Under the pieces are notes generated by a model that was given only the letters and a program-made list of their open reading frames with translations, did not search any database and was not told the origin of the DNA. Shown piece by piece: positions 1,043 to 12,295 of a stretch of DNA of 22,019 nucleotides. Position numbers and translations under genes: made by a program. This stretch comes from Actinomycetota bacterium (GTDB lineage: Bacteria > Actinomycetota > Thermoleophilia > UBA2241): positions 1 through 22,019 of the forward strand of contig PKYM01000037.1 of assembly GCA_003132645.1 (NCBI GenBank), given 5' to 3'. How positions within the stretch are numbered: position 1 is the stretch's first letter; each line of letters starts with the position of its first letter.

Positions 1043-1378
1043 TCACCGGCCTTCGTCGCGCAGGTACGAACCGTAGCCGCGCTTGAACTTTGTGGCGGCG
1101 TACTTTTGCAGCTTCCATTCGGGGATGCGGCACTCCGGACAGGCCTCGAAGAACAGCTTGTTACGCAGCCAGCGGGCCGAGCGGCTGTTCTTGGAGTCTC
1201 GCACGATCATGGTCTTGCCGCAGTGAGTGGTGAGCCGTGCCCGCGTGCCCAGCACCTCGAACTCCTTGATGCCGTGCAGCAGGCCGCGCCGCGAGGGCCA
1301 CAGCTTCAGCTTCTCGACGAGCCGAAAGAGCGGCACCTGCTTGCGGTAGTAGACGGCCTTGTTGGGGTCAGTCGGCAT
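1043..1378 (-). CDS. pylSn: PylSn, N-terminal tRNA-binding subunit of split pyrrolysyl-tRNA synthetase
   Basis: This 111-residue protein matches the N-terminal domain of pyrrolysyl-tRNA synthetase, which in bacteria is a separate protein that binds tRNA-Pyl. The conserved pattern is visible: KLWPSRRGLLHGIKEFEV (residues 25-42), THCGKTMIV (51-59), SKNSRSARWLR (62-72) and CPECRIPEWKL (80-90). His35, Cys53, Cys80 and Cys83 correspond to the zinc-binding set described for this domain. Typical family length is about 110 residues, so it looks full length. ATG is at 1378 with a weak purine-rich site just upstream; the stop is TGA. It lies about 4.2 kb from pylT, 96 bases downstream of the beta-lactamase-family gene, and could be transcribed with it. 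The catalytic partner PylSc was not found in the window. Confidence 0.93.
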   Translation of the reverse strand: MPTDPNKAVYYRKQVPLFRLVEKLKLWPSRRGLLHGIKEFEVLGTRARLTTHCGKTMIVRDSKNSRSARWLRNKLFFEACPECRIPEWKLQKYAATKFKRGYGSYLRDEGR

Positions 1379-1474: not shown

Positions 1475-3154
1475 TCAGGTAAAGGTGCGATAGAACGGCG
1501 CGCCGTCGTAGACGGCGCGGATCGCGCGGCCGTCGACCACCGTGTCGAACCAGAGGCGGTCCGGCAGCCAGTCGGCGGCGCCGACCCGAAAGCGCCCTTC
1601 GGGCAGCGGCACGAGCTCGAGCTCGTCGCTCGGATAGAGGCAGGGGGCGACCATGAGCAGACGCCCGCGCCGGCTGAAGACGCGAAAGACCGGAGACCAG
1701 GGGTTGTACGAGCGGTAGGTGCCGACGAGCTGCGCCCACGAAGGGTCGGCGACCGGCGCGGACGGCGCCGTGTGGCCGGCGCGCGCATACCAGTCGGGGC
1801 CAAGCGAGAGCGCGACGACGGCTCCGCCGTCGTCGCGCTCGAAGCGCAGGTGGAACCGGTCCCAGTCGGGCTGTGGCGCGAGGAACAGGTCGTCGTCGCG
1901 CCGCTCGAGGACGATCTCGCCGCCGGTCGGCGTGACCAGCGCCAGGCGTCCGTCGCGGGCGGCGAAGACGAGGCGAGCGGCGGGCGAAACGGCGGCGTCG
2001 GGATCCGCCAGGACGTACTCCCCAACGTACTCCCCTGCCGCAGCCCCGATGGCGGCGGGATCGGCGGGCGGCGCTGGCGGGGGCGCCGACGCCCCCGCCA
2101 GCGCCGCCCGCACCGCCGCCAGAGCGTAGGTGGCGATCTCCATCCGGTCGCCGCTGCCGTTCAGCAGGACGATCACACCGAGACCGGTCCCGGTCTCGGT
2201 CAGAAGCAGTGAGTTGAAGCCGACCATCCCGCCGGAGTGGCCGATGCAGGCGTAGCCGTCGATCGTGCGCGACACGAGGCCGTAGCCGTAGAAGGAGCCG
2301 GGCTCGTCGGGATCCTCGATCACCGCTGCGCACCAGCGGTCGAAGGCGGCCTCGCTCAGCAGGCGGCCGCCGGGAGCGTCGCCGCGATTCAAGATAAGGC
2401 GCGCGTAGGCCAGCATGTCGGCCGCCGACGAGACGATGCTGCCGTCGGCGCTGCAGCTCTCGACCAGTTGCGCCACGTCGAGCGGACGGCCGGTGTGCGC
2501 CGGCCGGTCGTCGCCGCGACGCTCGTAGCCGGTGGCGACCGGTCGAAGCGAGTCGCGGCGGATAACGGTCTCGGTCGCGACCATGCCCAGCGGCGCGACG
2601 AGGCGTTGGGCGACGAGCTCGTGCACCGGCCGGCCGGTCACGGCCTCCAGCGCCAGGCCCACCAGCTTGTAGCCGTCATTGGAATACCAGAAGCGTTCGC
2701 CCGGGGCGAAGCCAGTGTCGGTCTCGCGCAGCGTCCACACGGCGCCGCCGGCCTCGGCTGAGAACTCGGTGCCCATGATCAGGCCCGAGGTGTGGCTGAG
2801 CAGATGGTGCAGCGTGATCGGTCCGAAGCGTGAGCGCACCGCAAACCAGGGGACGTAGTCGGTGACCGGGGCCTGCAGATCGACGCGGCCGGCGTCGTGC
2901 TCCTGCAGCACGACTGCGGCCGCAAACGACTTGCTGATCGAGCCGATCTGAAAGCGCGTGTCGGGCTCGACCGGCGTGCCGGACGCGACGTCGGCGAGGC
3001 CGCGACAGACGAACCCCAGGGCGCCCTCGCGATCGGTCAGCCCGATCGCCACGCCGGGGGTGTCGAGGAGCGGCAGGCGCGCGGCGACGAACTCGTCGAT
3101 AGCCGCGAGGGCGGCTGTCACACGCTCGAGTCGGGCTGTGTCTGAGGCGGTCAT
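1475..3154 (-). CDS. Serine beta-lactamase family hydrolase (class C / D-aminopeptidase-like)
   Basis: The 559-residue protein has the signatures of the class C beta-lactamase/penicillin-binding-protein-like serine hydrolases. SISK (Ser72-Lys75) is the nucleophile tetrad, YSN (157-159) the second motif, and HSGG (306-309) stands for the KTG-like third motif. Residues 1 to about 350 form the hydrolase domain. The remaining 200 residues form a beta-rich C-terminal region of the kind attached to many such peptidases. No N-terminal signal peptide or membrane segment is visible, so a cytoplasmic peptidase or esterase is more likely than a secreted antibiotic-resistance enzyme. The start is ATG at 3154 and the stop TGA. 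It sits between the toxin-antitoxin pair and pylSn on the same strand. A link to pyrrolysine is not evident. Confidence 0.85.
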   Translation of the reverse strand: MTASDTARLERVTAALAAIDEFVAARLPLLDTPGVAIGLTDREGALGFVCRGLADVASGTPVEPDTRFQIGSISKSFAAAVVLQEHDAGRVDLQAPVTDYVPWFAVRSRFGPITLHHLLSHTSGLIMGTEFSAEAGGAVWTLRETDTGFAPGERFWYSNDGYKLVGLALEAVTGRPVHELVAQRLVAPLGMVATETVIRRDSLRPVATGYERRGDDRPAHTGRPLDVAQLVESCSADGSIVSSAADMLAYARLILNRGDAPGGRLLSEAAFDRWCAAVIEDPDEPGSFYGYGLVSRTIDGYACIGHSGGMVGFNSLLLTETGTGLGVIVLLNGSGDRMEIATYALAAVRAALAGASAPPPAPPADPAAIGAAAGEYVGEYVLADPDAAVSPAARLVFAARDGRLALVTPTGGEIVLERRDDDLFLAPQPDWDRFHLRFERDDGGAVVALSLGPDWYARAGHTAPSAPVADPSWAQLVGTYRSYNPWSPVFRVFSRRGRLLMVAPCLYPSDELELVPLPEGRFRVGAADWLPDRLWFDTVVDGRAIRAVYDGAPFYRTFT

Positions 3155-3215
3155 GGCGCCGCTATTCTCTCAGAATCGGCGAGCGCGGCGAAGCGGCTGG
3201 GGACTACCTGCTCCG

Positions 3216-3542
3216 CTACGGCTGGTCGAGCGTCTTGTCGAGCAGCGCCTGAATGTCTCGCACGTGCCTGTTCAGATCCTGCAAATGATCGTAGACGTCT
3301 CGGCAATGGCGGACCCGAAGAGCCAAAACGATCGTCTTCGTGTCCGAGACTGTGTAGATGATCCGATACTGGCCCAGGCGAATGCGATAGAGGCTCTCGA
3401 GCCCTCTCAACTTCTTGCAGCCCTGAGGACGAGGGTCGCTGCCGAGCGCTTCTATGACATCGACCACTCTGCGCTGGTCGGGCTTTCTGAGGGCACGTAT
3501 GTCCTTCTGCGCCGCGGCCAAGATCTCGACGCGGTACGCCAC
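3216..3542 (-). CDS. RelE/ParE-family toxin
   Basis: The 108-residue protein has the RelE/ParE fold signature: N-terminal YRVEI strand, an amphipathic helix, a KKLRGLESLYRIRLGQYRII core (about residues 43-62) and an RVRHCRDVY segment (77-85). RelE family members are usually ribosome-dependent mRNA endonucleases; members with this core can also be ParE-type gyrase poisons, and the sequence does not decide. The C-terminus, about residues 86-108, is longer than in a minimal RelE. The start is GTG at 3542 with AAAGGA about 9 bases upstream. The stop is TAG. It lies 27 bases after the antitoxin stop, in the same reading frame, and is presumably co-transcribed with it. Confidence 0.88.
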   Translation of the reverse strand: MAYRVEILAAAQKDIRALRKPDQRRVVDVIEALGSDPRPQGCKKLRGLESLYRIRLGQYRIIYTVSDTKTIVLALRVRHCRDVYDHLQDLNRHVRDIQALLDKTLDQP

Positions 3543-3569
3543 GCGCGAGCGTCCTTTCTGGAGACCGAG

Positions 3570-3827
3570 CTAGAGCCGGAGCTCCTTGCGAAAGTCCTCG
3601 ATGCTCATGCCGGCGCCGTCGCGCTCGTGGTCCTCCAGCGCCTCGAGGGCGGCGCGAAGATCGATGAAGTCCTCAAGCGCCTCGAGAAGCTGAGCGTCTT
3701 CGACTGAGACGAGGGCTGCCACATCCTTCTTGTGCTTGCGAACAATGATCCGTTCGTTGGAGATACGGACGTCGTCGATCCGGTCGGGAAGGTGATCACG
3801 CAGGTCAGAGACTGTGACGGTGGTCAT
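3570..3827 (-). CDS. Phd/YefM-RelB-type antitoxin
   Basis: This 85-residue protein begins MTTVTVSDLRDHLPDRIDDV, typical of Phd/YefM antitoxins, whose N-terminal domain binds operator DNA. The acidic helical C-terminus (about residues 48-85, rich in Glu, Asp and Leu) would wrap the toxin. ATG at 3827 has a strong GAGGAG ribosome-binding site. The stop is TAG at 3572-3570. Reading past it stays open for nine codons (LGLQKGRSR) and enters the toxin in frame. Gene order is antitoxin then toxin, as is usual, and the pair probably represses its own promoter. Its position between pylT and pylSn may mark an insertion into the pyl cassette or may help to keep it. Confidence 0.88.
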   Translation of the reverse strand: MTTVTVSDLRDHLPDRIDDVRISNERIIVRKHKKDVAALVSVEDAQLLEALEDFIDLRAALEALEDHERDGAGMSIEDFRKELRL

Positions 3828-3859
3828 GATAGCTCCTCACGCTGCTGGGCGGCTGCCCC

Positions 3860-3888
3860 ATTGTGATCGTTTCTACCGAAACGTGCAA
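3860..3888 (-). promoter_or_regulatory. Candidate promoter and operator of the toxin-antitoxin pair
   Basis: On the minus strand a -35-like TTGCAC (3883-3888) and a -10-like CACAAT (3860-3865) are separated by 17 bases. The spacer holds a 6-bp inverted repeat with a 4-base loop, CGTTTC/GAAACG on the plus strand at 3868-3873 and 3878-3883. This arrangement suits antitoxin autorepression. The -10 would lie about 33 bases before the antitoxin ATG. The inverted repeat is certain; its function as an operator is inferred. Confidence 0.4.
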
Positions 3889-3932
3889 TACGATTGTTTT
3901 GTACGTTTCTCTTGGTTCCCTTATCGGAAACT

Positions 3933-3949
3933 CTCAAGCATCGCTTGAG
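3933..3949. repeat. Perfect 7-bp inverted repeat between divergent genes
   Basis: CTCAAGC, ATC, GCTTGAG form a perfect palindrome with a 3-base centre. It lies between the toxin-antitoxin promoter and the promoter of the radical SAM gene at 4078. It could be a second operator site or a small hairpin; there is no U-tract to make it a terminator. Confidence 0.4.
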
Positions 3950-4015
3950 TCGGCCGGGCGCAGAAGCGCTGCCGTCTCGACAGATGCCCGCTGCTCTTCG
4001 CAAGGGATCCCGATC

Positions 4016-4044
4016 GTCACAGCGTCCGGCTCCGGTACTATTAT
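4016..4044 (+). promoter_or_regulatory. Candidate sigma-70-type promoter of the B12-type radical SAM gene
   Basis: GTCACA (4016-4021, four of six matches to TTGACA) and TATTAT (4039-4044, five of six matches to TATAAT) are 17 bases apart. Transcription would start near 4051. A GGGGGAAGG ribosome-binding site (about 4062-4070) precedes the GTG at 4078. Confidence 0.45.
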
Positions 4045-4077
4045 AGGAAGTGCCCACTCAATGGGGGAAGGTCACGC

Positions 4078-5535
4078 GTGACCGATATCGTGTTCGTCTA
4101 CAACGACGTGACCGCGCATACGCGCTACACATGCGGGCTCGGCGTGGCCTCGATCGCCTCGCATCTGGCCAGTCATGGGCTGACCTCCGAGCTTGTCTAC
4201 TATCGGCGCGAGAGCGATCTGCCGTACGCGCTCGACCGGGTGCGCCGCGCCGACCCCTGCCTCGTGGGCTTCTACAGCCCGTCCTCCGGCTTTCCCGCCC
4301 TTCAGCGTCTGTCGATGGCCATCCGCCGGCAGGCGCCCGGGCTGTTCCAGGCCTGCGGTGGACCGCACGTGACGCTCCGCCCCGAGAGCCTGTTCGAGGC
4401 GCCTTCGCTCGACGCCGTCTGCATCGGCTACGGTGAGCGTCCGCTGCTCGAGCTGGTGCAGCGTCTGCGAGCCGGCCGGGACCTCGCGGGCATCGAAGGT
4501 TTCTGGGTGGCCCGTCGGGACGGTCAGATCGGCGCTGGCGCGACCATCGAACGCAACCCGCCCAGCGTCACCTTCGGCGACGCCGACGAGCTGCTCGGCT
4601 TCGATCATGGGCTCTTCCTGCGCGAGTTCGCCAGGTTCCCCGACTTCTCACGGGAGCGCCAGAGGCTCGAGATCATCTTCGCTCGTGGCTGTTCGTACCG
4701 GTGTGCCTTCTGCTCCAACGTCGCGCTTCGCAAGGTGATGGGACCGCACATCCCGCGGCCCTCGGTCGAGGCCTCCATCCGTGTCGTCAAGGAGAGTCAT
4801 GCCGCCACCGGGCTCACGAGGGTGGCGTTCCACGACGACAATTTCACCCTCGACCGCGAGTGGTTTCGCAGCTTCGTGGCCCGCTATGCCGACGAGGTCC
4901 GGGTGCCATTCTCGTGCAATCTGCGAGCCGACGGCTTCGATGCCCAGGACGCGCGTCTGCTCGCCGAGGCGGGGGCCGAACGCATCTACGTCGGCGTCGA
5001 GTCCGGCAACGCTCACATCCGCAACGACGTCATGCGCAAAGGGGTGAGCGACGAGGCGATCGTGCGCGGCTTCAAGCTTCTTGAGAACGCCGGCATACCG
5101 GCGGTCAGCCAGAACATCATCGGCACCCCGGGTGAGACACCGGCGATGTTCCTCGACACCGTACGCCTGAACGCGCGCCTCGCGACGCGCGGGGCCATCA
5201 TCTCCGTGTTCTACCCGTACCCCGGCACCGAGCTTGCCGAGTACTGCGACGCTCACGGGCTGCTCTCCAGACGTCTCCGCGGGTCACGCGAGCGCAACGA
5301 GGACGTGCTCTGCACGCCGCAGTTCCCGCCGGCCAGGATCGGGTTCTACCGGCGCAGCTTTGCGCTGTTGATCCGGTACGAGCGCCTGCACCGGGCGCAC
5401 CCGGTGCTGCTGCCCGTGCCGCTGACCCCGCGCACAGCCGCTCCGATCGCCCGCGCGATGCGTCTCCACCGGCGAACGATCGGCCGCCTGCGCGCGAAGC
5501 GGGTACAGCCGACCTTGGCAACGCCCTCAGGTTGA
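4078..5535 (+). CDS. B12-binding-domain radical SAM protein (BchE/methyltransferase-type)
   Basis: The 485-residue protein has the two-part layout of cobalamin-dependent radical SAM enzymes. Residues 1 to about 140 form a B12-binding-type Rossmann domain (GLGVASIASHL at 20-30, ACGGPHVTLRPE at 92-103, IGYGE at 116-120). Residues from about 195 form a radical SAM barrel with RGCSYRCAFC, the CX3CX2C motif at Cys205, Cys209 and Cys212. YVGVESGN and the later NIIGTPGET are the usual SAM-binding segments. The classical DxHxxG cobalamin base motif is not obvious, as in many relatives. The start is GTG at 4078, after a good ribosome-binding site; the stop is TGA. It converges on pylT, ending 11 bases from its 3' end. 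It may methylate or cyclise a substrate, but neither substrate nor a link to pyrrolysine can be read from the sequence. Confidence 0.85.
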   Translation: MTDIVFVYNDVTAHTRYTCGLGVASIASHLASHGLTSELVYYRRESDLPYALDRVRRADPCLVGFYSPSSGFPALQRLSMAIRRQAPGLFQACGGPHVTLRPESLFEAPSLDAVCIGYGERPLLELVQRLRAGRDLAGIEGFWVARRDGQIGAGATIERNPPSVTFGDADELLGFDHGLFLREFARFPDFSRERQRLEIIFARGCSYRCAFCSNVALRKVMGPHIPRPSVEASIRVVKESHAATGLTRVAFHDDNFTLDREWFRSFVARYADEVRVPFSCNLRADGFDAQDARLLAEAGAERIYVGVESGNAHIRNDVMRKGVSDEAIVRGFKLLENAGIPAVSQNIIGTPGETPAMFLDTVRLNARLATRGAIISVFYPYPGTELAEYCDAHGLLSRRLRGSRERNEDVLCTPQFPPARIGFYRRSFALLIRYERLHRAHPVLLPVPLTPRTAAPIARAMRLHRRTIGRLRAKRVQPTLATPSG

Positions 5536-5546
5536 CCGAGCTCTGT

Positions 5547-5619
5547 TGGCGGGGAGTAGGGGAGTTACACCCCTCTACGCGGATTTAGAGTCCGCGCTGA
5601 TCCTTCCGATCGACCCCCC
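5547..5619 (-). tRNA. pylT: tRNA-Pyl (anticodon CUA, amber suppressor)
   Basis: On the minus strand a 73-nt tRNA folds with the oddities of tRNA-Pyl. The acceptor stem is GGGGGGT/ACTCCCC with one G-U pair. A single base (C) separates acceptor and D stems. The D arm is GATC-GGAAG-GATC. The anticodon stem has six base pairs, CGCGGA/TCCGCG, around loop CTCTAAA, giving anticodon CUA. The variable region is only TAG (3 nt). The T arm is AGGGG-TGTAACT-CCCCT, without the canonical TTC. Discriminator G and an encoded CCA complete it. The short D loop, 3-nt variable loop and long anticodon stem distinguish it from ordinary tRNAs. It lies 66 bases after pylD on the same strand and probably shares its transcript. 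No terminator is seen before the convergent gene. Confidence 0.95.
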
Positions 5620-5685
5620 GCGCCAACTGACAGGCTAGCGCATGCGCGGCTGGCGGCCAACCGGCGCGCACCGCCGGGTGTCGGG

Positions 5686-6603
5686 TCAGGGCGCCTCTGC
5701 GAAAAGGCCATGCAGAGCCATCGCGGCCACCCCCAGGGCAAGCGGCTCATGCACCAGCCGATCACCCAGCGCGGTCGCCGCCGCGGGCGTGACGCCGGGC
5801 GGCAAGCCGGGCGACGAGACCACGCCGTCGCCGCGCACCCAGTCGGCGTCGATCAGATCGGCGCTCGGCGTGGCGTCCAACACGAGTCGACATCGCGCCA
5901 GGCCGTCGACGAGCGAGACCGGTGTGATCTCGAGCTCGCCGGCAACGCGCTCGAGGTGCGCCTTGTCGAGCTCGGCGACGAACACGTCGGCGCCGAGCTC
6001 GACAAGGCGCACCGCCGCCGCCGTGCCCACCGGACCCAGGCCAATGACCAGAACCGGCTTGCCCGCCACGCCGTCCGCATCGACCACGCTCTCTCCCGCG
6101 GCCGCGCACGCCACACCCTTCGCGCCGGTCATGCCGCCCGCACCCGCCACAGCCTTTGCGCCCGCCACACCGGCCGCCCGATCGAGCGCCGCGGCATACG
6201 CCCAGGCCGTGCAGGGATCGTCGTCTGCCACCGTGCGGCGCGCGAAGTCGAAGGCGAGGAACTTGCGGTCATCGGCGGCGAAGACGAGATCGTCGCCAAA
6301 GCGGAGCGTCTCGGCGAAGCCGGCGACGTCGGAGGCCACAGTGACCCGCGCGTGGCAGCCGAGGTGTGCGCAGATCGCCGCGACGCACTCGGCAAAGCCG
6401 GGGATGAGGCCTTCGCCGGTCGTGATGGGCACGACGGCCACGGAGGCGTTGGCGAGGGCGTCGCGCGCGACGCCCTCGCCAACGCCGCACGCCCTGGCGC
6501 CAAGCGCCACGAAGTCACAGCCGGTGAGCCGCACGAGCGCCGCCTCGACCTCGATGAGATGCGCGGTCAGGCTACGCACGTCGCTTTCGATCAGGCGGGT
6601 CAC
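5686..6603 (-). CDS. pylD: PylD, pyrrolysine synthase (dehydrogenase)
   Basis: PylD oxidises the lysine-methylornithine dipeptide made by PylC, and the product cyclises to pyrrolysine. The 305-residue protein shares landmarks with archaeal PylD: VPITTGEGLIPGFAECVAAI (about 58-77), ADDRKFLAFDF (110-120), an NAD-binding glycine loop VLVIGLGPVG (184-193) and a C-terminal HEPLALGVAAMAL (285-297). The GTG start at 6603 overlaps the pylC stop (GTGA), implying translational coupling. The stop is TGA. The archaeal protein is about 260-270 residues; the excess is explained by an Ala/Gly-rich stretch, about residues 143-180, just before the Rossmann strand. It is in the operon nitroreductase-pylB-pylC-pylD-pylT. 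Confidence 0.93.
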   Translation of the reverse strand: MTRLIESDVRSLTAHLIEVEAALVRLTGCDFVALGARACGVGEGVARDALANASVAVVPITTGEGLIPGFAECVAAICAHLGCHARVTVASDVAGFAETLRFGDDLVFAADDRKFLAFDFARRTVADDDPCTAWAYAAALDRAAGVAGAKAVAGAGGMTGAKGVACAAAGESVVDADGVAGKPVLVIGLGPVGTAAAVRLVELGADVFVAELDKAHLERVAGELEITPVSLVDGLARCRLVLDATPSADLIDADWVRGDGVVSSPGLPPGVTPAAATALGDRLVHEPLALGVAAMALHGLFAEAP

Positions 6604-8021
6604 GGCCGAGCCGTCCGTGGTTGGCGATCACCTGCGGAGTCGGGCGCGTGCATCGGCGCGGAGCCGCGCGCGTCAGAGGCGCCGCTCGCGCCAACCTGCT
6701 CCGGCCCCCGCTCGGGCACGAGCTCCAGCCCGTGCTCGTCGGCCAGCCGCTCGACGGCGGCGGTGGCCCGCTCGCGGGCCACCGCCGCCGTCGAGCCCCG
6801 CGTCATCAGAACGGCCACCCAGCGCTCCTGCACGGCGCCTGGCGCCCGCTGCGCGCGTCCACGGTCTGGGAGGTCGGTGAGCACCACGTCGGCCCCGTAG
6901 AGGCCGTCACAGCGGCGCAGGGGGCCGGCTGAGCCGACGACGTGCTCGCCGAGCACCTCTACCCTGCCGTTCTCGACCAGCACGTGCTGGTAGACGGCGC
7001 CGCGCCGGGCGCGCGGGTCTACGGCCGGAGGTCGGCCACCCGCGAACGTCTCGGCCAGCAGCGCCACAATGTTGACGTCGCTGGCATGGAACACGGCGGC
7101 CGGCGTCTGGCTGGGCAGCCGCGCGTCGATTTCGATCACCTTGGGCGTGCCGTCGGGCGCCACCATCACCTCGACGTCCATCACGCCGCCGAGCGCCACA
7201 CCCTCGGCCAGCCGGCGAGCGGCCTGGTCGAGGCCGCGCATGGTGGCGGCGCTCACACGGTCCGCCCCGGCGGCTGCGGTTGCGTCGGGTGCGGTCGCGC
7301 CGGGTGTGGTCTCGGCGCCTGTGTCTGTCGAGTCGCCGCCTCGCTTGGCACTGTCTTCCCCACCGCCGCCAACCGTCGCCGCGCCGCCCTCCCCATCGAC
7401 CGGTGCGACCACCCGCTTGCAGTCCAGCACGGCGTCGAACTCGAGCCAGGTCGGCAGCAGCGTGACGGCCTCGCCGCCGAGGCTCAGCACTTCGATCGAC
7501 AGCGAGGGACCGCTCACGAACTCCTCGACTACGGCGTCGGCGCCCTCGGCCGCCAGGTGGGCGCGAACCAGCTCGAGCGCGGGCTCCGAGAAGACCACGC
7601 TCACCCCGGCGCTGCCACTGCCCACGGCGGGCTTGACCACGACCGGAAAGCCGCAGGGCCAAGCCAGCGGCCGGGGCACGTCGAGTCGCTCGAACAGGGC
7701 GTTGGAGCGCAGCTTCGACGAGGTCACGGTGTAGGCGTCGAGGTCGAACAGCAGGGGCACACCGATCCCCGGCACGAACGACGCGAGGAAGGCCAGCGTG
7801 TGGTCGTCCTCGCAGGCGGGCAGCACCGCGTCGCACGAGCGAAACAGCTCGCGCGCCCGCACCGGGTCGCTCGTCACATCGAAGACGTGGCACTCGTCGG
7901 CCAGCCCGGCCGCCGGGCGCTCGGCCCGGCGATCGATGAGCACGACCTCGTAGCCCGCCTCACCGGCCAGGTAGGCGGCTTCCGTACCCTGCAGCTTGCC
8001 GCCGACGATCGCCAGCCTCAT
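6600..8021 (-). CDS. pylC: PylC, 3-methylornithine-lysine ligase (ATP-grasp)
   Basis: PylC joins (3R)-3-methyl-D-ornithine to the epsilon-amino group of L-lysine using ATP. Diagnostic segments are VGGKLQGTEAAYLAG (residues 6-20), FPVVVKPAVGSGSAGV of the ATP-grasp fold (125-140), VEEFVSGPSLSIEVLS (165-180), and MDVEVM with KVIEIDARLPSQTPAAV (281-310). These closely match archaeal PylC. I place the start at ATG 8021, which overlaps the pylB stop (ATGA); an in-frame upstream start at 8060 would only add an Arg/Ala-rich tail inside pylB. At 473 residues it is about 110 longer than Methanosarcina PylC. The extra consists of a Gly/Ala/Thr-rich insert (about 209-256) and an extended C-terminus (from about 435). 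The stop is TGA. Confidence 0.93.
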   Translation of the reverse strand: MRLAIVGGKLQGTEAAYLAGEAGYEVVLIDRRAERPAAGLADECHVFDVTSDPVRARELFRSCDAVLPACEDDHTLAFLASFVPGIGVPLLFDLDAYTVTSSKLRSNALFERLDVPRPLAWPCGFPVVVKPAVGSGSAGVSVVFSEPALELVRAHLAAEGADAVVEEFVSGPSLSIEVLSLGGEAVTLLPTWLEFDAVLDCKRVVAPVDGEGGAATVGGGGEDSAKRGGDSTDTGAETTPGATAPDATAAAGADRVSAATMRGLDQAARRLAEGVALGGVMDVEVMVAPDGTPKVIEIDARLPSQTPAAVFHASDVNIVALLAETFAGGRPPAVDPRARRGAVYQHVLVENGRVEVLGEHVVGSAGPLRRCDGLYGADVVLTDLPDRGRAQRAPGAVQERWVAVLMTRGSTAAVARERATAAVERLADEHGLELVPERGPEQVGASGASDARGSAPMHAPDSAGDRQPRTARP

Positions 8022-9100
8022 CGCCGTACGGCGCGCCGCTCGAGCGCGCCGGCGACCCACCCAGCGTACTCACCCGCCGTCGCGGCGCGCAGCCCGAGAG
8101 CCGTCAGGCGGGAGCTCGCCTCGGCCGCTGTGCGCAGGCCGGCGTCGATGTCGAGCTCGGACTGCGAGACGCCGGCCAGGCCTAGGTCGGGCGGCACGAT
8201 CGAGGTCACGACGTTGGCCCCCGCGGCGATGCGGGGTTCGAGTCCGTTGATGCCGTCGACGTCGAGCGTGGCGGGGATCAGGCGCTCGGGCATGACGAGA
8301 CGCATGGTGGCGATCGTGACGAGCTCGCCCAGGCTGCCGGCCGGCGACTCGTGCTCGAGCGGCGTGCCGCGCTGCGGCACGAAGCTCATGACGCGCACCT
8401 GGTCGACCGGCTCGTCGCGCATGGCGGCCACGCTCAGCGCGCGGTCGCCCACGGTCTCGCCGATGCCCAGCAGCATGCCGTCCTCGACCAGCATGCCGAG
8501 ACGCGCGGCGGCGGTCCGCGCGGCGGCGCGGGCGGCGAAGTCCTGGCCGACGCGCAACCGCGCGTAGACCTCGGGCGCGTGGGTCTCCTGATAGCAGGCA
8601 TACCACTCGGCGCCGGCATCGCGCAGGGCGGCGAGCACGTCGGCCGAGACCTTGCCGGGCGAGATCATGACCGGCAGCCCGGTGGCCTCTTTGACGGCCC
8701 GCACCAGCTCGACCAGTGCGTCGAACTCGTTGGTCGCGAAGTAGAGCGGATCCTCGCCCATCGTGAGGTCGATCAGATGGACCCCCGACGCGGCCAGCCC
8801 ACAGGCGATGGCGACCACCTCGTCTAAGGACTTGCGGTAGCGCGGACTCTCGGGATTGCCGCGGCGGTACAGGCAGAAGGTGCACTCGTTGTGACAGTAG
8901 GTCGAGAAGTAGACGAAGCCGTAGAGAAAGATGGCGTCGCCGAAGTGGCGGCGGCGCAGCTCGCCGGCCGCGGCAAAGAGCGCCGCGGCGTCATGCGGGT
9001 CGGTGACGGCCAGCAGGGTGGCGATGTCTGACCCGGCGGGCGGCTGCCCGTCGAGGGCGCGCTCGAGGATCTCCGGCAAGCGCCGAAGACCGCCGCTCAC
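8018..9100 (-). CDS. pylB: PylB, 3-methylornithine synthase (radical SAM lysine mutase)
   Basis: PylB converts L-lysine to (3R)-3-methyl-D-ornithine by a radical SAM rearrangement, the first step of pyrrolysine synthesis. The 360-residue protein resembles BioB/HydE-type enzymes. FLYGFVYFSTYCHNECTFC (about 58-76) carries the CX3CX2C cluster at Cys69, Cys73 and Cys76, followed by LYRRGNPESPRYRKS, a PylB hallmark. IDLTMGEDP and PVMISPGKVS segments follow in the barrel. The GTG start at 9100 overlaps the stop of the upstream nitroreductase gene (GTGA) and gives the usual family length of about 350; longer in-frame versions run inside that gene and are low-complexity. The stop is TGA and overlaps the pylC start. 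HydE is a weaker alternative, ruled against by the pylC-pylD-pylT context. Confidence 0.93.
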   Translation of the reverse strand: MSGGLRRLPEILERALDGQPPAGSDIATLLAVTDPHDAAALFAAAGELRRRHFGDAIFLYGFVYFSTYCHNECTFCLYRRGNPESPRYRKSLDEVVAIACGLAASGVHLIDLTMGEDPLYFATNEFDALVELVRAVKEATGLPVMISPGKVSADVLAALRDAGAEWYACYQETHAPEVYARLRVGQDFAARAAARTAAARLGMLVEDGMLLGIGETVGDRALSVAAMRDEPVDQVRVMSFVPQRGTPLEHESPAGSLGELVTIATMRLVMPERLIPATLDVDGINGLEPRIAAGANVVTSIVPPDLGLAGVSQSELDIDAGLRTAAEASSRLTALGLRAATAGEYAGWVAGALERRAVRR

Positions 9101-9804
9101 GTTCCCTCGTCCTTGGGCTCCGCCGGCAGGAAGCGCAGCACCTCGTCGAGCGGCAGGCGACCGGCGGCAGCCGGCGGGCGGCCGCCGGCGGGCGGCCCGG
9201 CGGCTACGCCGACGGCGACGAGCGCGGCCAGATGGGCCGGCTCCTCGGCGCCCAGCAGCACCTCGAGCCTGTGCGCGGCCAGCACCGGAGCGCACATCCA
9301 GCAGGCGCCGTAGCCCAGCAGATGCGCCGCCACGAGCAGCACCTGCACGGCGGCGCCGACGCTCTGCAGGTCGGGCCTGGCGCGCAAGCGGTCGCGCTCT
9401 TCGCGCGACACGCCGCGCAGCGTGAGCAGGCGATCGATGCGCGACTCGTAGGGCAGGCCGAACACGGCGATGGTCAGCGGGGCGTCGGCGAAAAGGGTCG
9501 TGGCCTTGCGCACAGCCGGCGCGTTGGGCGCGGCCCCGCTGCCCTCGGCCTCGGGCCAGCGCGCCACCTCGTCGAGGCGCTCTTCGACCGCGGCGCGCAT
9601 CGCGGCGAGCAAGGCTGGGTCATCGACCGCGACGAAGCGCCAGGGCTGGGCGTTGCCGGCGTTGGCGGAAAGCGTCGCGAGACGGACCATCTCGCGCACG
9701 TCGGCGCGCGCCACCGGGTCGGCCGTGAAGCGGCGCACGCTGTGGCGGCCCTCGACGGCGGCGACGAACCCTGGAAGGTCTGGCGATGGTGCACGGCGAA
9801 TCAT
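9097..9804 (-). CDS. Nitroreductase-family flavoprotein, first gene of the pyl operon
   Basis: The 235-residue protein fits the FMN-dependent nitroreductase superfamily. It has RHSVRRFTADPV near the N-terminus (the phosphate-binding RRS/RHSxR motif), ATLSANAGNAQPWRFV, and a C-terminal half with GAAVQVLLVAAHLLGYGACWM. The family binds FMN and uses NAD(P)H or another donor to reduce varied substrates; some members are dehydrogenases. I prefer ATG at 9804; TTG at 9813 would add three residues. A TGGTACGAT extended -10-like element ends nine bases before the ATG, so the mRNA may be nearly leaderless. The stop overlaps the pylB start (GTGA), so it is translationally coupled to pyrrolysine synthesis. 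Its role there is not known; a redox function in the pathway is only a guess. Confidence 0.85.
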   Translation of the reverse strand: MIRRAPSPDLPGFVAAVEGRHSVRRFTADPVARADVREMVRLATLSANAGNAQPWRFVAVDDPALLAAMRAAVEERLDEVARWPEAEGSGAAPNAPAVRKATTLFADAPLTIAVFGLPYESRIDRLLTLRGVSREERDRLRARPDLQSVGAAVQVLLVAAHLLGYGACWMCAPVLAAHRLEVLLGAEEPAHLAALVAVGVAAGPPAGGRPPAAAGRLPLDEVLRFLPAEPKDEGT

Positions 9805-9812
9805 CAGACCCA

Positions 9813-9821
9813 ATCGTACCA
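9813..9821 (-). promoter_or_regulatory. Candidate extended -10 element of the pyl operon
   Basis: The minus strand reads TGGTACGAT immediately before the nitroreductase start. TG-n-TACGAT is an extended -10 pattern, and the same nine bases occur before gatC at 20862-20870. No good -35 is seen 17 bases upstream. A start point would fall about two bases before the ATG at 9804. Confidence 0.4.
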
Positions 9822-9870
9822 GAGCTCACGAGGGAGGGGTCCTGTGAAGAAGTGGGGAGATCCGCCGCGG

Positions 9871-9969
9871 CCCCGGCCTGAACGCGCCGGGGCCGAACCG
9901 CCGCCCAGGACGCGCGGCGAGGCCGAACCGCCGGCGCAGGCGGGACGGCGTCTGCCGCCCCGCCTGCGC
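9871..9969 (-). terminator. Hairpin cluster after the aldehyde oxidoreductase operon
   Basis: A near-perfect 16-bp stem (9934-9949 with 9954-9969, one mismatch, loop GTCT) begins 14 bases after the stop of the Fe-S subunit gene at 9983. A second hairpin, CCCCGGC/GCCGGGG, is at 9871-9892. Neither has a U-tract in the minus-strand direction. They probably mark the 3' end of the upstream operon and separate it from the pyl operon. The block also has a direct repeat, GGCCGAACCGCC at 9891 and 9921. Confidence 0.55.
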
Positions 9970-9982
9970 TCGGTGCGAAAGG

Positions 9983-10486
9983 TCAGGCCTTCGCGGTAAG
10001 CGCCCTGTCGGCCTTGTCGACCTTGAGATCGACGGCCAGGACGTACTGGTTCTGACAGAAGGCGATGCACTGCGGGTCGCCGTCGCACAGGTCGCACTTG
10101 AAGGCCACCTTGCGCTCGGGGTGTTCGTGGATCACGCCGTAGGGGCAGACGTCGTAGCAGTCGCCGCAGTTGTTGCACTTCTCCTCGTCGACCACGAGCA
10201 CGATGCCGGTGACCGAGTCGCCGACCTTCTCCTTGCTGGCAAAGGTGCCGGAAGGCGTGACCGTGATCTCGCGCGCCACGATGGCGTCGTTGGGGCAGGC
10301 CTCCTGGCACTTGGCGCAGCCGGTCTGCAGGCAGCTATGGCCCTTGATCACCGCGGTCGTCGGGTTGACGTCGGCAAACAGACGAGCGCGCGACGGCTGA
10401 AAGCCGCCTTCGTGCCACGCCGAGCAGCCGAGTTCACACATATGGCAGCCAGTGCATTTCTTGCTGCTGATCATCACGTGAGGCAT
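9983..10486 (-). CDS. Polyferredoxin-like Fe-S subunit of aldehyde ferredoxin oxidoreductase
   Basis: The 167-residue protein carries 16 cysteines arranged for four [4Fe-4S] clusters. The groups are Cys11/14/17/21, Cys52/57/60/64, Cys104/107/110/114 and Cys131/134/140/144. This is the layout of HycB/DmsB-type electron-transfer subunits and of the small subunits accompanying some tungsten AOR-family enzymes. It would pass electrons between the catalytic subunit and a cellular carrier. ATG at 10486 has GAGAAAGGGAG upstream. The stop is TGA. It follows the AOR gene by 30 bases. The AOR stop is TAG and the frame is open from there into this gene, with ten intervening codons. Confidence 0.88.
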   Translation of the reverse strand: MPHVMISSKKCTGCHMCELGCSAWHEGGFQPSRARLFADVNPTTAVIKGHSCLQTGCAKCQEACPNDAIVAREITVTPSGTFASKEKVGDSVTGIVLVVDEEKCNNCGDCYDVCPYGVIHEHPERKVAFKCDLCDGDPQCIAFCQNQYVLAVDLKVDKADRALTAKA

Positions 10487-10516
10487 ATGACTCCCTTTCT
10501 CGCCGCGTGTCAGCCG

Positions 10517-12295
10517 CTAGAGCCGCACGTCAATGCCGAGCTCGGTGAGCTTGGCCTCGGTGGGTACGCCGTCCTCGTCCCAGCCGCGCAGAGCGTAGTA
10601 CTGGCCCAGGACTTCGTTGAATCGTGCGGTGCCGATGATCTTGCCGGCGGAGACGCCATCGCTGAACGGCTTCTCGAGCCAGGCTTCGGGGATCACGTCG
10701 TCGGCCTTGCTGTAGCCTTCGCGCAGGTTGAACAGGCGGCCGAGGTTCCAGACGCGCTCGCCGACCTGCGTCATCTCTTCTTCTGTGACCTCGCGCTTCC
10801 AGAGGTGCTTCATGAGCATCCCCATCTGCTCGTAGTCGATCGCCCAGAAGTCGCACCAGACGCCGCAGAACTTGAAGGCGTAGTGGTTCTGGAAGGTGAC
10901 GTTGAATTCGGCCTTGCTCTCGTCGAGAGTGTCGGCGGGCATGGTGCCCTCGACGATCTCGACACCGATCGGGAACGAGCGCATGTGGCAGGCGCCGCGG
11001 TCGGAGGTAGCGTAGGCGATGCTCATGCCGAACGAGCCGCGTGGGTCGTAGCCGGGCGCCTCGAGGCCCTTGACCTGCATGCCCAGCTCGGGGTGGCCGT
11101 ACTTGGCCGCCAGGGCGCGGGAGCCCATGGCCAGCTCGGCGCCGACGCCGGTGCGCAGAGCGAGCTGCTCGGGGATCTTGAGATAGGCCTCGATGTCGCC
11201 GAAGTGCAGGCCGAAGTCGTGGATGCCCTTCTCGGTCATGTCCATCGCCAGGCCGAGCACGTTGCCGGTCGAGATGGTGTCGAGGCCGTACTCGTCGCAG
11301 AGGTGGTTGAACTGCATGAGGGCGGCGATGTCGTCGACGCCGACGTTCGAGCCACACAGCGCGATGGTCTCGTACTCGGGGCCTTCGCCTTCGATGTCGT
11401 TGATGCGGTGGAAGTTGCGGCAGGCCAGCGTGCACTGGTAGCAGGCGCGCTTCTTGACGCGGATCTTCTTGAAGGCCTCGGAGTTGATGTTGCCGGCGCC
11501 CTTGAAGGTGCCTGAGGAGTAGTTGCGCGTGGGCTGGCAGCCGGCGCCGTCGGTCACGTCGACCAGGACGGGCGTGCCTTCTTCGTGGACCCAGTAGTTG
11601 GAGTCGGTGAGGATGTAGTCGGTGTCGATGCGCTCGATGTCTTCGAGGAACGCCCGCGCGTCGCCGACCGTGACGCGGCCGGTGCCGGCCACGGCGATCG
11701 CCTTGAGGTTCTTGGAGCCCATCAGGGCGCCCGTGCCGCCGCGCCCGGCCTTGTGGTACTGGTCGTTGGAGACGCAGGCCCAGGGCAGCTTGTGCTCGCC
11801 CGCGGGGCCGATCGACAGCGAGGTCATGTGCGGGTCGAAGTCGGCGCGCAGGGCGGCCTCGATGTCGGCGGTCAGCATGCCGGCATACTTGGCGGCCGGC
11901 ACGAAGCTCACCTTGTCGTCCTTGATGAGCACTGCCGTGAGCTCGGCCGCGCAACCCTGAACGATGATCAGGTCGTAGCCGGCGAACTTGAGGACGGAGC
12001 CGAAGGAGCCGCCGCAGTAGCTGTCGAGGATGGTGCCGTTAGCGGGGCTCTTGCCGCCCAGCACGACGCGCGAACAGGTGCTCACGTTGGTGCCGGCGAA
12101 CGGACCGGGCGCGACGATCAGCGGATTCTCGGGCGACCAGGGGTCCATGCCCGGTTCGGTCAAGTCCCACAGGTAGCGCAGCATCAGGCCCTTGCCGCCG
12201 ACGTAGAGTCGCGCCCATTCCATGTTCAACGGCTCGACCTCTGCGGTGCCCGTGCTCATGTCGATCTTGAGCACGTGTCCCTTGTAGAAGTCCAA
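10517..12295 (-). CDS. Tungsten-dependent aldehyde ferredoxin oxidoreductase (AOR family)
   Basis: AOR-family enzymes use a bis-tungstopterin and a [4Fe-4S] cluster to interconvert aldehydes and acids. The 592-residue length is typical of the family (about 600). The N-terminus (LYVGGKGLMLRYLWD) and PGPFAGT segment suit pterin binding, as does GRGGTGALMGSKNLKAIAV (184-202). Cluster ligands are probably Cys285, Cys288 and Cys292 (CYQCTLAC) with Cys477 or Cys481 near the end. DEYGLDTIS (334-342) corresponds to the conserved DxxGL(D/C) pterin motif. The start is TTG at 12295, after a GAGGGAGGG site. The stop is TAG. The pairing with a four-cluster subunit resembles AorAB- or BamBC-like complexes, so the substrate may be a carboxylic acid or an acyl-CoA; the sequence does not decide. 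Confidence 0.9.
   Translation of the reverse strand: MDFYKGHVLKIDMSTGTAEVEPLNMEWARLYVGGKGLMLRYLWDLTEPGMDPWSPENPLIVAPGPFAGTNVSTCSRVVLGGKSPANGTILDSYCGGSFGSVLKFAGYDLIIVQGCAAELTAVLIKDDKVSFVPAAKYAGMLTADIEAALRADFDPHMTSLSIGPAGEHKLPWACVSNDQYHKAGRGGTGALMGSKNLKAIAVAGTGRVTVGDARAFLEDIERIDTDYILTDSNYWVHEEGTPVLVDVTDGAGCQPTRNYSSGTFKGAGNINSEAFKKIRVKKRACYQCTLACRNFHRINDIEGEGPEYETIALCGSNVGVDDIAALMQFNHLCDEYGLDTISTGNVLGLAMDMTEKGIHDFGLHFGDIEAYLKIPEQLALRTGVGAELAMGSRALAAKYGHPELGMQVKGLEAPGYDPRGSFGMSIAYATSDRGACHMRSFPIGVEIVEGTMPADTLDESKAEFNVTFQNHYAFKFCGVWCDFWAIDYEQMGMLMKHLWKREVTEEEMTQVGERVWNLGRLFNLREGYSKADDVIPEAWLEKPFSDGVSAGKIIGTARFNEVLGQYYALRGWDEDGVPTEAKLTELGIDVRL

Follow-up and report, generated by a model that had tools for sequence, protein, structure and literature searches.

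An apparently complete pyrrolysine system with a distinct gene arrangement in an uncultured family of Thermoleophilia

We analyzed a stretch of 22,019 nucleotides (nt) from an Actinomycetota bacterium (Thermoleophilia; UBA2241; contig PKYM01000037.1 of assembly GCA_003132645.1), which we refer to in its entirety as the window; coordinates are those of the window unless a contig (C) or locus (L) is named. On its minus strand the window carries a compact block in which a flavoprotein gene and three genes for the biosynthesis of pyrrolysine (Pyl, the rare 22nd amino acid), pylB, pylC, and pylD, are followed by the tRNA-Pyl gene pylT, and a gene for one subunit of pyrrolysyl-tRNA synthetase, pylSn, lies approximately 4.2 kb past pylT on the same strand. 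These features are as follows:

9097..9804, minus strand: nitroreductase-family flavoprotein (PF00881), first in the overlapping block; Pfam 96.7 bits, closest NCBIfam model BluB (43.8 bits), closest PDB relative 3eo8
8018..9100, minus strand: pylB, methylornithine synthase, radical S-adenosylmethionine (SAM) protein with the motif CHNECTFC; TIGR03910 439.9 bits (cut-off 348.2), 3t7v (PylB) 283 bits
6600..8021, minus strand: pylC, 3-methylornithine--L-lysine ligase; TIGR03909 305.8 bits (cut-off 248.3), 4ffl (PylC)
5686..6603, minus strand: pylD, 3-methylornithyl-N6-lysine dehydrogenase; TIGR03911 192.2 bits (cut-off 150.05), 4j43 (PylD)
5547..5619, minus strand: pylT, tRNA-Pyl (CUA), 73 nt with CCA counted; called by ARAGORN, 85.5 bits (E 8e-20) with our own covariance model R1
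1043..1378, minus strand: pylSn, tRNA-binding subunit of pyrrolysyl-tRNA synthetase; TIGR03912 124.6 bits (cut-off 51.15), 5ud5 51 bits

From the flavoprotein gene to pylD, consecutive genes overlap by 4 bases (GTGA, ATGA, and GTGA), and 66 bases separate pylD from pylT; on re-reading the junctions we obtained the same overlaps and gap as an initial annotation made from the letters of this DNA, which had taken the block for part of a genuine pyrrolysine system. That annotation had considered that the three enzymes might fit HydE, D-Ala ligase-like, and dehydrogenase families better, or that the tRNA might fail a tRNA-Pyl model, and neither was the case. PylB, PylC, and PylD all exceed the curated cut-offs, Pyl profiles outscore the HydE, D-Ala ligase, and dehydrogenase profiles on them (the NCBIfam HydE profile reaches only 107.9 bits on PylB compared with 439.9 bits for the PylB profile), and, within the E-value limits applied, their best or sole PDB relatives are the solved PylB, PylC, and PylD structures. 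PylD has about 30 additional residues that are absent from the 10 relatives readable at that place, and a low-complexity stretch in PylC is longer than in relatives. Promoter and terminator scans of positions 5300-10600 yielded no site, where 0.1 and 1.3 were expected by shuffling.

For comparison, a PylB alignment was used to scan a single genome of each species; from the 398 relatives obtained, we retained the 80 best loci. Besides the window, 11 of these loci have the pylB-C-D-T arrangement (L075 is cut off before pylT); we refer to these 11, which have Actinomycetota, Actinobacteria, Actinomycetes, or Thermoleophilia in their record titles, as the clade loci, 12 with the window. The initial annotation had contrasted the gene order with that of Desulfitobacterium, and pylT is indeed last and the block different, but the order is common to the 11 other loci rather than peculiar to this genome. 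Likewise, its statement that pylS is absent holds for the B-C-D-T block itself but not for the genome, since pylSn is in the same window and pylSc is on another contig (G000:C169:1595-2278; 276 bits, cut-off 178). The closest solved relative of this PylSc is 3dsq, a pyrrolysyl-tRNA synthetase that we take to be D. hafniense PylSc, and a PylSc tree places it, with a support of 97, together with the PylSc of the four clade loci that have one. In the clade loci, pylSn comes after pylT in eight of 11, an inverted and more distant pylSc is reached in four (L055, L066, L077, and L111), and the longer loci have further upstream genes in common. In the window pylSc is not directly before pylB; instead, the flavoprotein gene is upstream of pylB, followed by genes for a ferredoxin and an aldehyde ferredoxin oxidoreductase (AFOR). 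In a PylB tree of 81 rows, built with a quick method and assessed by the Shimodaira-Hasegawa-like approximate likelihood ratio test (SH-aLRT) only, without bootstrap, 17 Actinomycetota rows form one group (SH-aLRT 98), within which the nearest kin of the 12 loci are five Actinomycetota that have pylT and the synthetase upstream of pylB.

At its gathering threshold Rfam had no match in the window, and a permissive Rfam search of positions 5400-5800 gave a single sub-threshold match (16.3 bits, E 0.45). Because of the missing match at threshold, we built a tRNA-Pyl covariance model trained on 28 bacterial tRNA-Pyl, all from outside the window's clade. With this clade-free model the window tRNA scores 85.5 bits and the 10 clade relatives searched score 79-87 bits, the sole further match across these 11 sources being at 15.9 bits, which together with the ARAGORN call bears out the intact CUA tRNA-Pyl of the initial annotation. 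The window tRNA has, in addition to the CUA anticodon, a 6-base pair (bp) anticodon stem, a 3-nt variable loop, G73, G1:C72, and a 5-nt D-loop, all of which it shares with the tRNA-Pyl of the Desulfitobacterium hafniense tRNA-Pyl/PylSc pair. It differs at position 8, where G8 is an identity element in D. hafniense (PMC7609411; this and the papers below are cited for the parts of their text covered) and the clade has C8, and at the junction between the D-stem and the anticodon stem, which is 2 nt long here compared with 1 nt. All 11 clade tRNA-Pyl read have both C8 and the 2-nt junction, whereas the other listed bacterial tRNA-Pyl have 1 nt at the junction, and in those that are complete position 8 is G, T, or A; the model set the extra nucleotide at this junction in all three alignments shown. 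Base 8 agrees with residue 141 of PylSc (D. hafniense numbering) at 44 of 46 loci (purine with Asp or Glu, pyrimidine without), and of the two exceptions, one (L096) comes from a tRNA truncated by the end of its contig, with base 8 read one place off. We do not claim coevolution, however, because a 57-row synthetase tree needs one change and contains no differing independent pairs, so that relatedness accounts for the pattern. With C8 and the extra core nucleotide, the tRNA-Pyl/PylSc pair of the clade is a candidate that genetic-code work could test for orthogonality.

The initial annotation had proposed a check for methyltransferase genes with an internal TAG, and these were found for mtbB and mttB but not for mtmB. 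In the window's genome, one in-frame TAG is present in seven of eight mtbB places, the eighth being an N-terminal fragment, and in two of 28 places that match the MttB family. With these nine methyltransferase genes, each with one in-frame TAG and with similar TAG contexts within each family, the system is complete on paper. Four of them (both mttB and two of the seven mtbB) were tested with TAG translated as a residue and all four pass the Pyl-MttB or Pyl-MtbB equivalog cut-offs, and in one mttB (L008) the TAG is aligned to the Pyl of 7xcl. Each of the nine TAG sites has a match to Rfam PYLIS_2 or PYLIS_3; because these models also track coding conservation, the matches are no independent proof of an RNA signal. 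The two MtmB homologues of the genome are divergent members of PF05369 (L012 on C25 and L013 on C42), neither of which has a TAG, and L012 has Tyr opposite the Pyl of 1l2q; in the window's family TAG occurs in one of 11 MtmB-family matches, one of the other 10 being a fragment that ends before the site. Activity toward tetramethylammonium and choline has recently been demonstrated for an MtmB homologue of the non-Pyl type (PMC13044021). The 26 MttB-family places without TAG are spread over many contigs, some being pieces of one gene, and probably represent quaternary-amine or other methyltransferases. A TGA-containing MttB candidate on C265 was rejected, as the TGA is merely the terminal stop. 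Separately, we note a molybdenum/tungsten riboswitch (RF01055, 46.7 bits) at L135:13732-13901, on a contig bearing TAG-containing mtbB and mttB, and that the stop codon of pylSc is TAG in four of five clade loci and 19 of 52 loci elsewhere, where read-through would lengthen the synthetase.

The distribution of these genes suggests that pyrrolysine is a standing trait of the whole uncultured family. TAG-containing mtbB is found in all 15 family genomes, with exactly one TAG in 93 of 104 matches; the remaining 11 are fragments that stop short of the site. PylSn exceeds its cut-off in 19 of 399 genomes of the class, comprising 14 of the 15 genomes of the window's family and five genomes of one other family, and PylSc above cut-off and a strong tRNA-Pyl match (at least 79 bits) are each found in 14 of the 15 family genomes; PylB exceeds its cut-off in two of 396 genomes of the phylum. 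G423, which is 84% complete, is the sole family member without PylSn, PylSc, and tRNA-Pyl, and because it keeps a TAG-containing mtbB and a flavoprotein homologue, these absences are likely due to assembly gaps. In a genome of the other family, PylSn was matched in two pieces in different frames (G438:C1:102946-103187), possibly reflecting a frameshift or an assembly error.

From the computed gene identities and order, the tRNA, the TAG positions, and the clustering of the rearranged loci, we infer with high confidence that this is a complete bacterial Pyl system, of which the window holds the biosynthesis and tRNA half. Following the chemistry of the known families, PylB would convert lysine to 3-methylornithine, PylC would join this to a second lysine, and PylD would oxidize and cyclize the product to pyrrolysine. 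Once charged by the split synthetase PylSn+PylSc, tRNA-Pyl would read TAG in the genes for dimethylamine (mtbB) and trimethylamine (mttB) methyltransferases, and the methyl groups of these putative substrates would enter corrinoid-dependent metabolism. The block would presumably be expressed as one transcript. The Actinomycetota order pylT-Sn-Sc-B-C-D would have been rearranged once, in the ancestor of one Thermoleophilia family, to (flavoprotein)-pylB-C-D-T, an order in which pylSn lies downstream and pylSc is inverted, and the flavoprotein gene would travel in the operon without being needed for pyrrolysine.

Several observations weigh against this reading. The assembly is 88% complete and consists of 370 contigs, and pylSc is on a separate contig. 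A possible adjacency of C71 and C169 is favored by an amidase gene beside pylSc on C169 that has a homologue beside pylSc in all four clade loci reaching pylSc; however, the corrinoid-protein-gene homologue that lies between pylSn and pylSc in three of these loci (L066, L077, and L111, not L055) was looked for on C169 without success, and no 20-mer is common to the ends of the two contigs. The 12 B-C-D-T loci form one PylB group at an SH-aLRT of 94, that is, below 95, and no PDB relative of MtbB was found with which the position of the mtbB TAG could be compared. Moreover, TAG is also an ordinary stop codon: it terminates 38 of 94 long reading frames, nine of them at Pyl sites (132 kb counted by a crude open reading frame rule, not gene calling), and AFOR homologues stop at the same residue with TAG in six loci and with TGA in four, the other two of 12 differing at the end. 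Pyl insertion must therefore compete with termination, and because TAG remains a common stop, these genomes are a natural test of how a codon of dual meaning is tolerated. That the pyl genes are decayed or unused remnants is nonetheless very improbable, given that all pyl genes of the window's genome are open and above the cut-offs with an intact tRNA, that each of 93 mtbB matches from 15 genomes has one TAG, and that Pyl-encoding mttB and mtbB are reported to be expressed in Actinobacteriota of Stordalen Mire (PMC10805028).

On either side of the genes described above, the window contains the following features:

9983..10486, minus strand: 4Fe-4S ferredoxin-like protein (Pfam) adjoining the block; homologue beside AFOR in 11 of 11 clade loci
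10517..12295, minus strand: AFOR (PF01314/PF02730), a kept neighbor of the pyl block; ends in TAG
3155..5546, no strand: DNA from the beta-lactamase-like gene to pylT, including the next three features
4078-5535, plus strand: B12-binding radical SAM gene
3570-3827, minus strand: Phd-like antitoxin
3216-3542, minus strand: ParE-like toxin
1475..3154, minus strand: beta-lactamase-fold (PF00144) gene in the pylT-pylSn interval; homologues in L052 and L077
90..968, plus strand: radical SAM gene beyond pylSn and convergent with it; homologue in eight of 11 clade loci, TAG stop

Homologues of AFOR are present in all 11 clade loci as well as in the window. An AFOR-ferredoxin fusion through TAG read-through was considered, as the AFOR TAG of the window is in frame with the ferredoxin gene, and was rejected because relatives have TGA at this point or are out of frame. 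The flavoprotein does not qualify as BluB (5,6-dimethylbenzimidazole synthase), its score being under the cut-off of 150 bits, although its closest PDB relative is a BluB-like flavoprotein.

Two further readings concern the relation of these neighbors to the pyl genes. It appears unlikely to us that the flavoprotein is a functional accessory of the pyrrolysine/methylamine pathway (e.g., in PylD redox balance or corrinoid activation) that is held in place by selection. Its gene is present in nine of 11 clade loci (all but L055 and L066) and in the window, thus upstream of pylB in 10 of 12 loci and overlapping it by 4 bases in the window, and in the class sample only the family has homologues with at least 48% identity (13 of 15 genomes; the remaining 134 genomes of the class gave only three matches at E 1e-10, with 31-35% identity); it was detected in none of the other 69 kept loci, many of which have short flanks. 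Yet G407 and G428, which correspond to L066 and L055 by contig coordinates, keep pylB, pylC, pylD, and pylSn without a flavoprotein match, so the flavoprotein is probably not required. The case of L055 is qualified by a possible frameshift, because its pylC is matched in two reading frames (L055:3056-4808), which may alternatively be an assembly error. In addition, an in-frame TGA is present in two of the best family matches (13 in all), the neighborhood is syntenic so that the adjacency may be plain inheritance, and pylBCD alone suffice for pyrrolysine in Escherichia coli (PMC2933860). We therefore regard the flavoprotein as a putative passenger or optional accessory. We consider it somewhat more probable than not that AFOR, ferredoxin, and flavoprotein simply form an operon that is older than the arrival of the pyl genes on its downstream side, common transcription being incidental. 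The AFOR and ferredoxin homologues precede the block in the 11 clade loci and the window even where the flavoprotein is missing, and in 10 of 12 loci, the window and L052 being the exceptions, a small gene was matched between AFOR and ferredoxin, which is ThiS-like by Pfam in L077 and L111, the two tested; a ThiS-like gene is expected in a tungsten-enzyme operon. On the other hand, the order of events is conjectural, as no relative was found in which the site is free of pyl genes, and AFOR homologues also occur in four of the 69 other loci (L054, L056, L064, and L085) at one to several kb from pyl genes.

The DNA between pylT and the beta-lactamase-like gene (3155-5546) has no blastn match (E 1e-5) among the compared loci save itself, and the sister locus L052 lacks it, similarity to the window resuming 118 bases past pylT. 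This 2.4-kb stretch was rejected as a clean integrase element because its far end lacks any 12-mer of pylT. Two other places suggest that in the family temperate phages or islands may integrate into the chromosome at pylT, with tyrosine integrases recombining at its 3' half, a proposal for which we see the chances as evenly balanced. In a tRNA-model search of the family, 46 nt at G000:C261:24797-24842 (L210:14198-14243, minus strand) proved identical to the 3' part of pylT, spanning the anticodon loop through CCA; the sequence on their 5' side is unlike pylT. A tyrosine integrase gene (L210:16991-18007, minus strand) is 2.7 kb away, with DUF5677 and macro-domain genes in between, and the 20 kb that were read of this contig (L210) contain no tRNA gene. 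Furthermore, the provirus-like IMG/VR record IMGVR_UViG_3300005254_000029 (L211) has terminase, portal, and integrase genes and, in the region L211:12893-14148, an intact tRNA-Pyl that is 13 bp from the convergent integrase gene and 47 bp from the contig end; it is of the clade type, with 69 of 73 positions identical to the window's. No second tRNA-Pyl copy was found in L211, both element borders are seen in neither L211 nor C261, the two integrases are only 33% identical, and the L211 tRNA-Pyl may be carried by the phage itself. In a search of 50,697 phage records, matches covered at most 37% of tRNA-Pyl. The family search, which scored the best 150 candidates per genome so that other pylT fragments may have escaped, gave 20 further weak matches, of which the six checked were five tRNA-Ser and one tRNA-Tyr. 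If pylT is such a site, the amber-decoding tRNA must be rebuilt at every integration, with a possible effect on pyrrolysine use by the host. We regard the Pyl system as real, complete on paper, and family-wide, and pylT as a mobile-element target as the more surprising lead.

The bacterial pyl orders on record are pylTScBCDSn and pylSnScBCD (Desulfitobacterium and Acetohalobium; PMC3941956, PMC2933860), and in a delta-proteobacterium pylBCD and pylTScSn are on separate contigs (PMC2933860). The system described here has the same six genes, split synthetase, and enzyme families as the pylTScBCDSn and pylSnScBCD clusters, but B-C-D-T forms one block with pylT last, pylSn comes after other genes, and pylSc is inverted and farther away or on another contig. 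One review counts two actinobacterial pyrrolysyl-tRNA synthetases (PMC11764691). By titles and abstract openings, we found no description of this gene order, the tRNA variant, or integration at tRNA-Pyl in the open-licence literature. The nearest PylB relatives, the pylT-Sn-Sc-B-C(-D) clusters of L053, L054, L056, L069, and L126, are from the same phylum (pylD was not detected in L054 and L056); they differ in having pylT and the synthetase before pylB, no detected flavoprotein, and a tRNA-Pyl with T8 and without the extra nucleotide. In L053, one stop-to-stop frame is matched by both the PylSn and PylSc profiles next to a PylSn match in another frame (L053:8598-9965), possibly a fusion or a profile artefact. 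A further close known case is that of Stordalen Mire, which is from the same phylum and for which the genus Bog-752 is listed among the most active methylotrophs; bog_752 (L052) matches G404 by its pylT coordinates, and G404 belongs to the window's own genus. The part of that paper covered does not describe pyl gene order, tRNA, or synthetase (PMC10805028). Because it already reports Pyl-encoding mttB and mtbB in Actinobacteriota, what we describe is a new arrangement of a known system.

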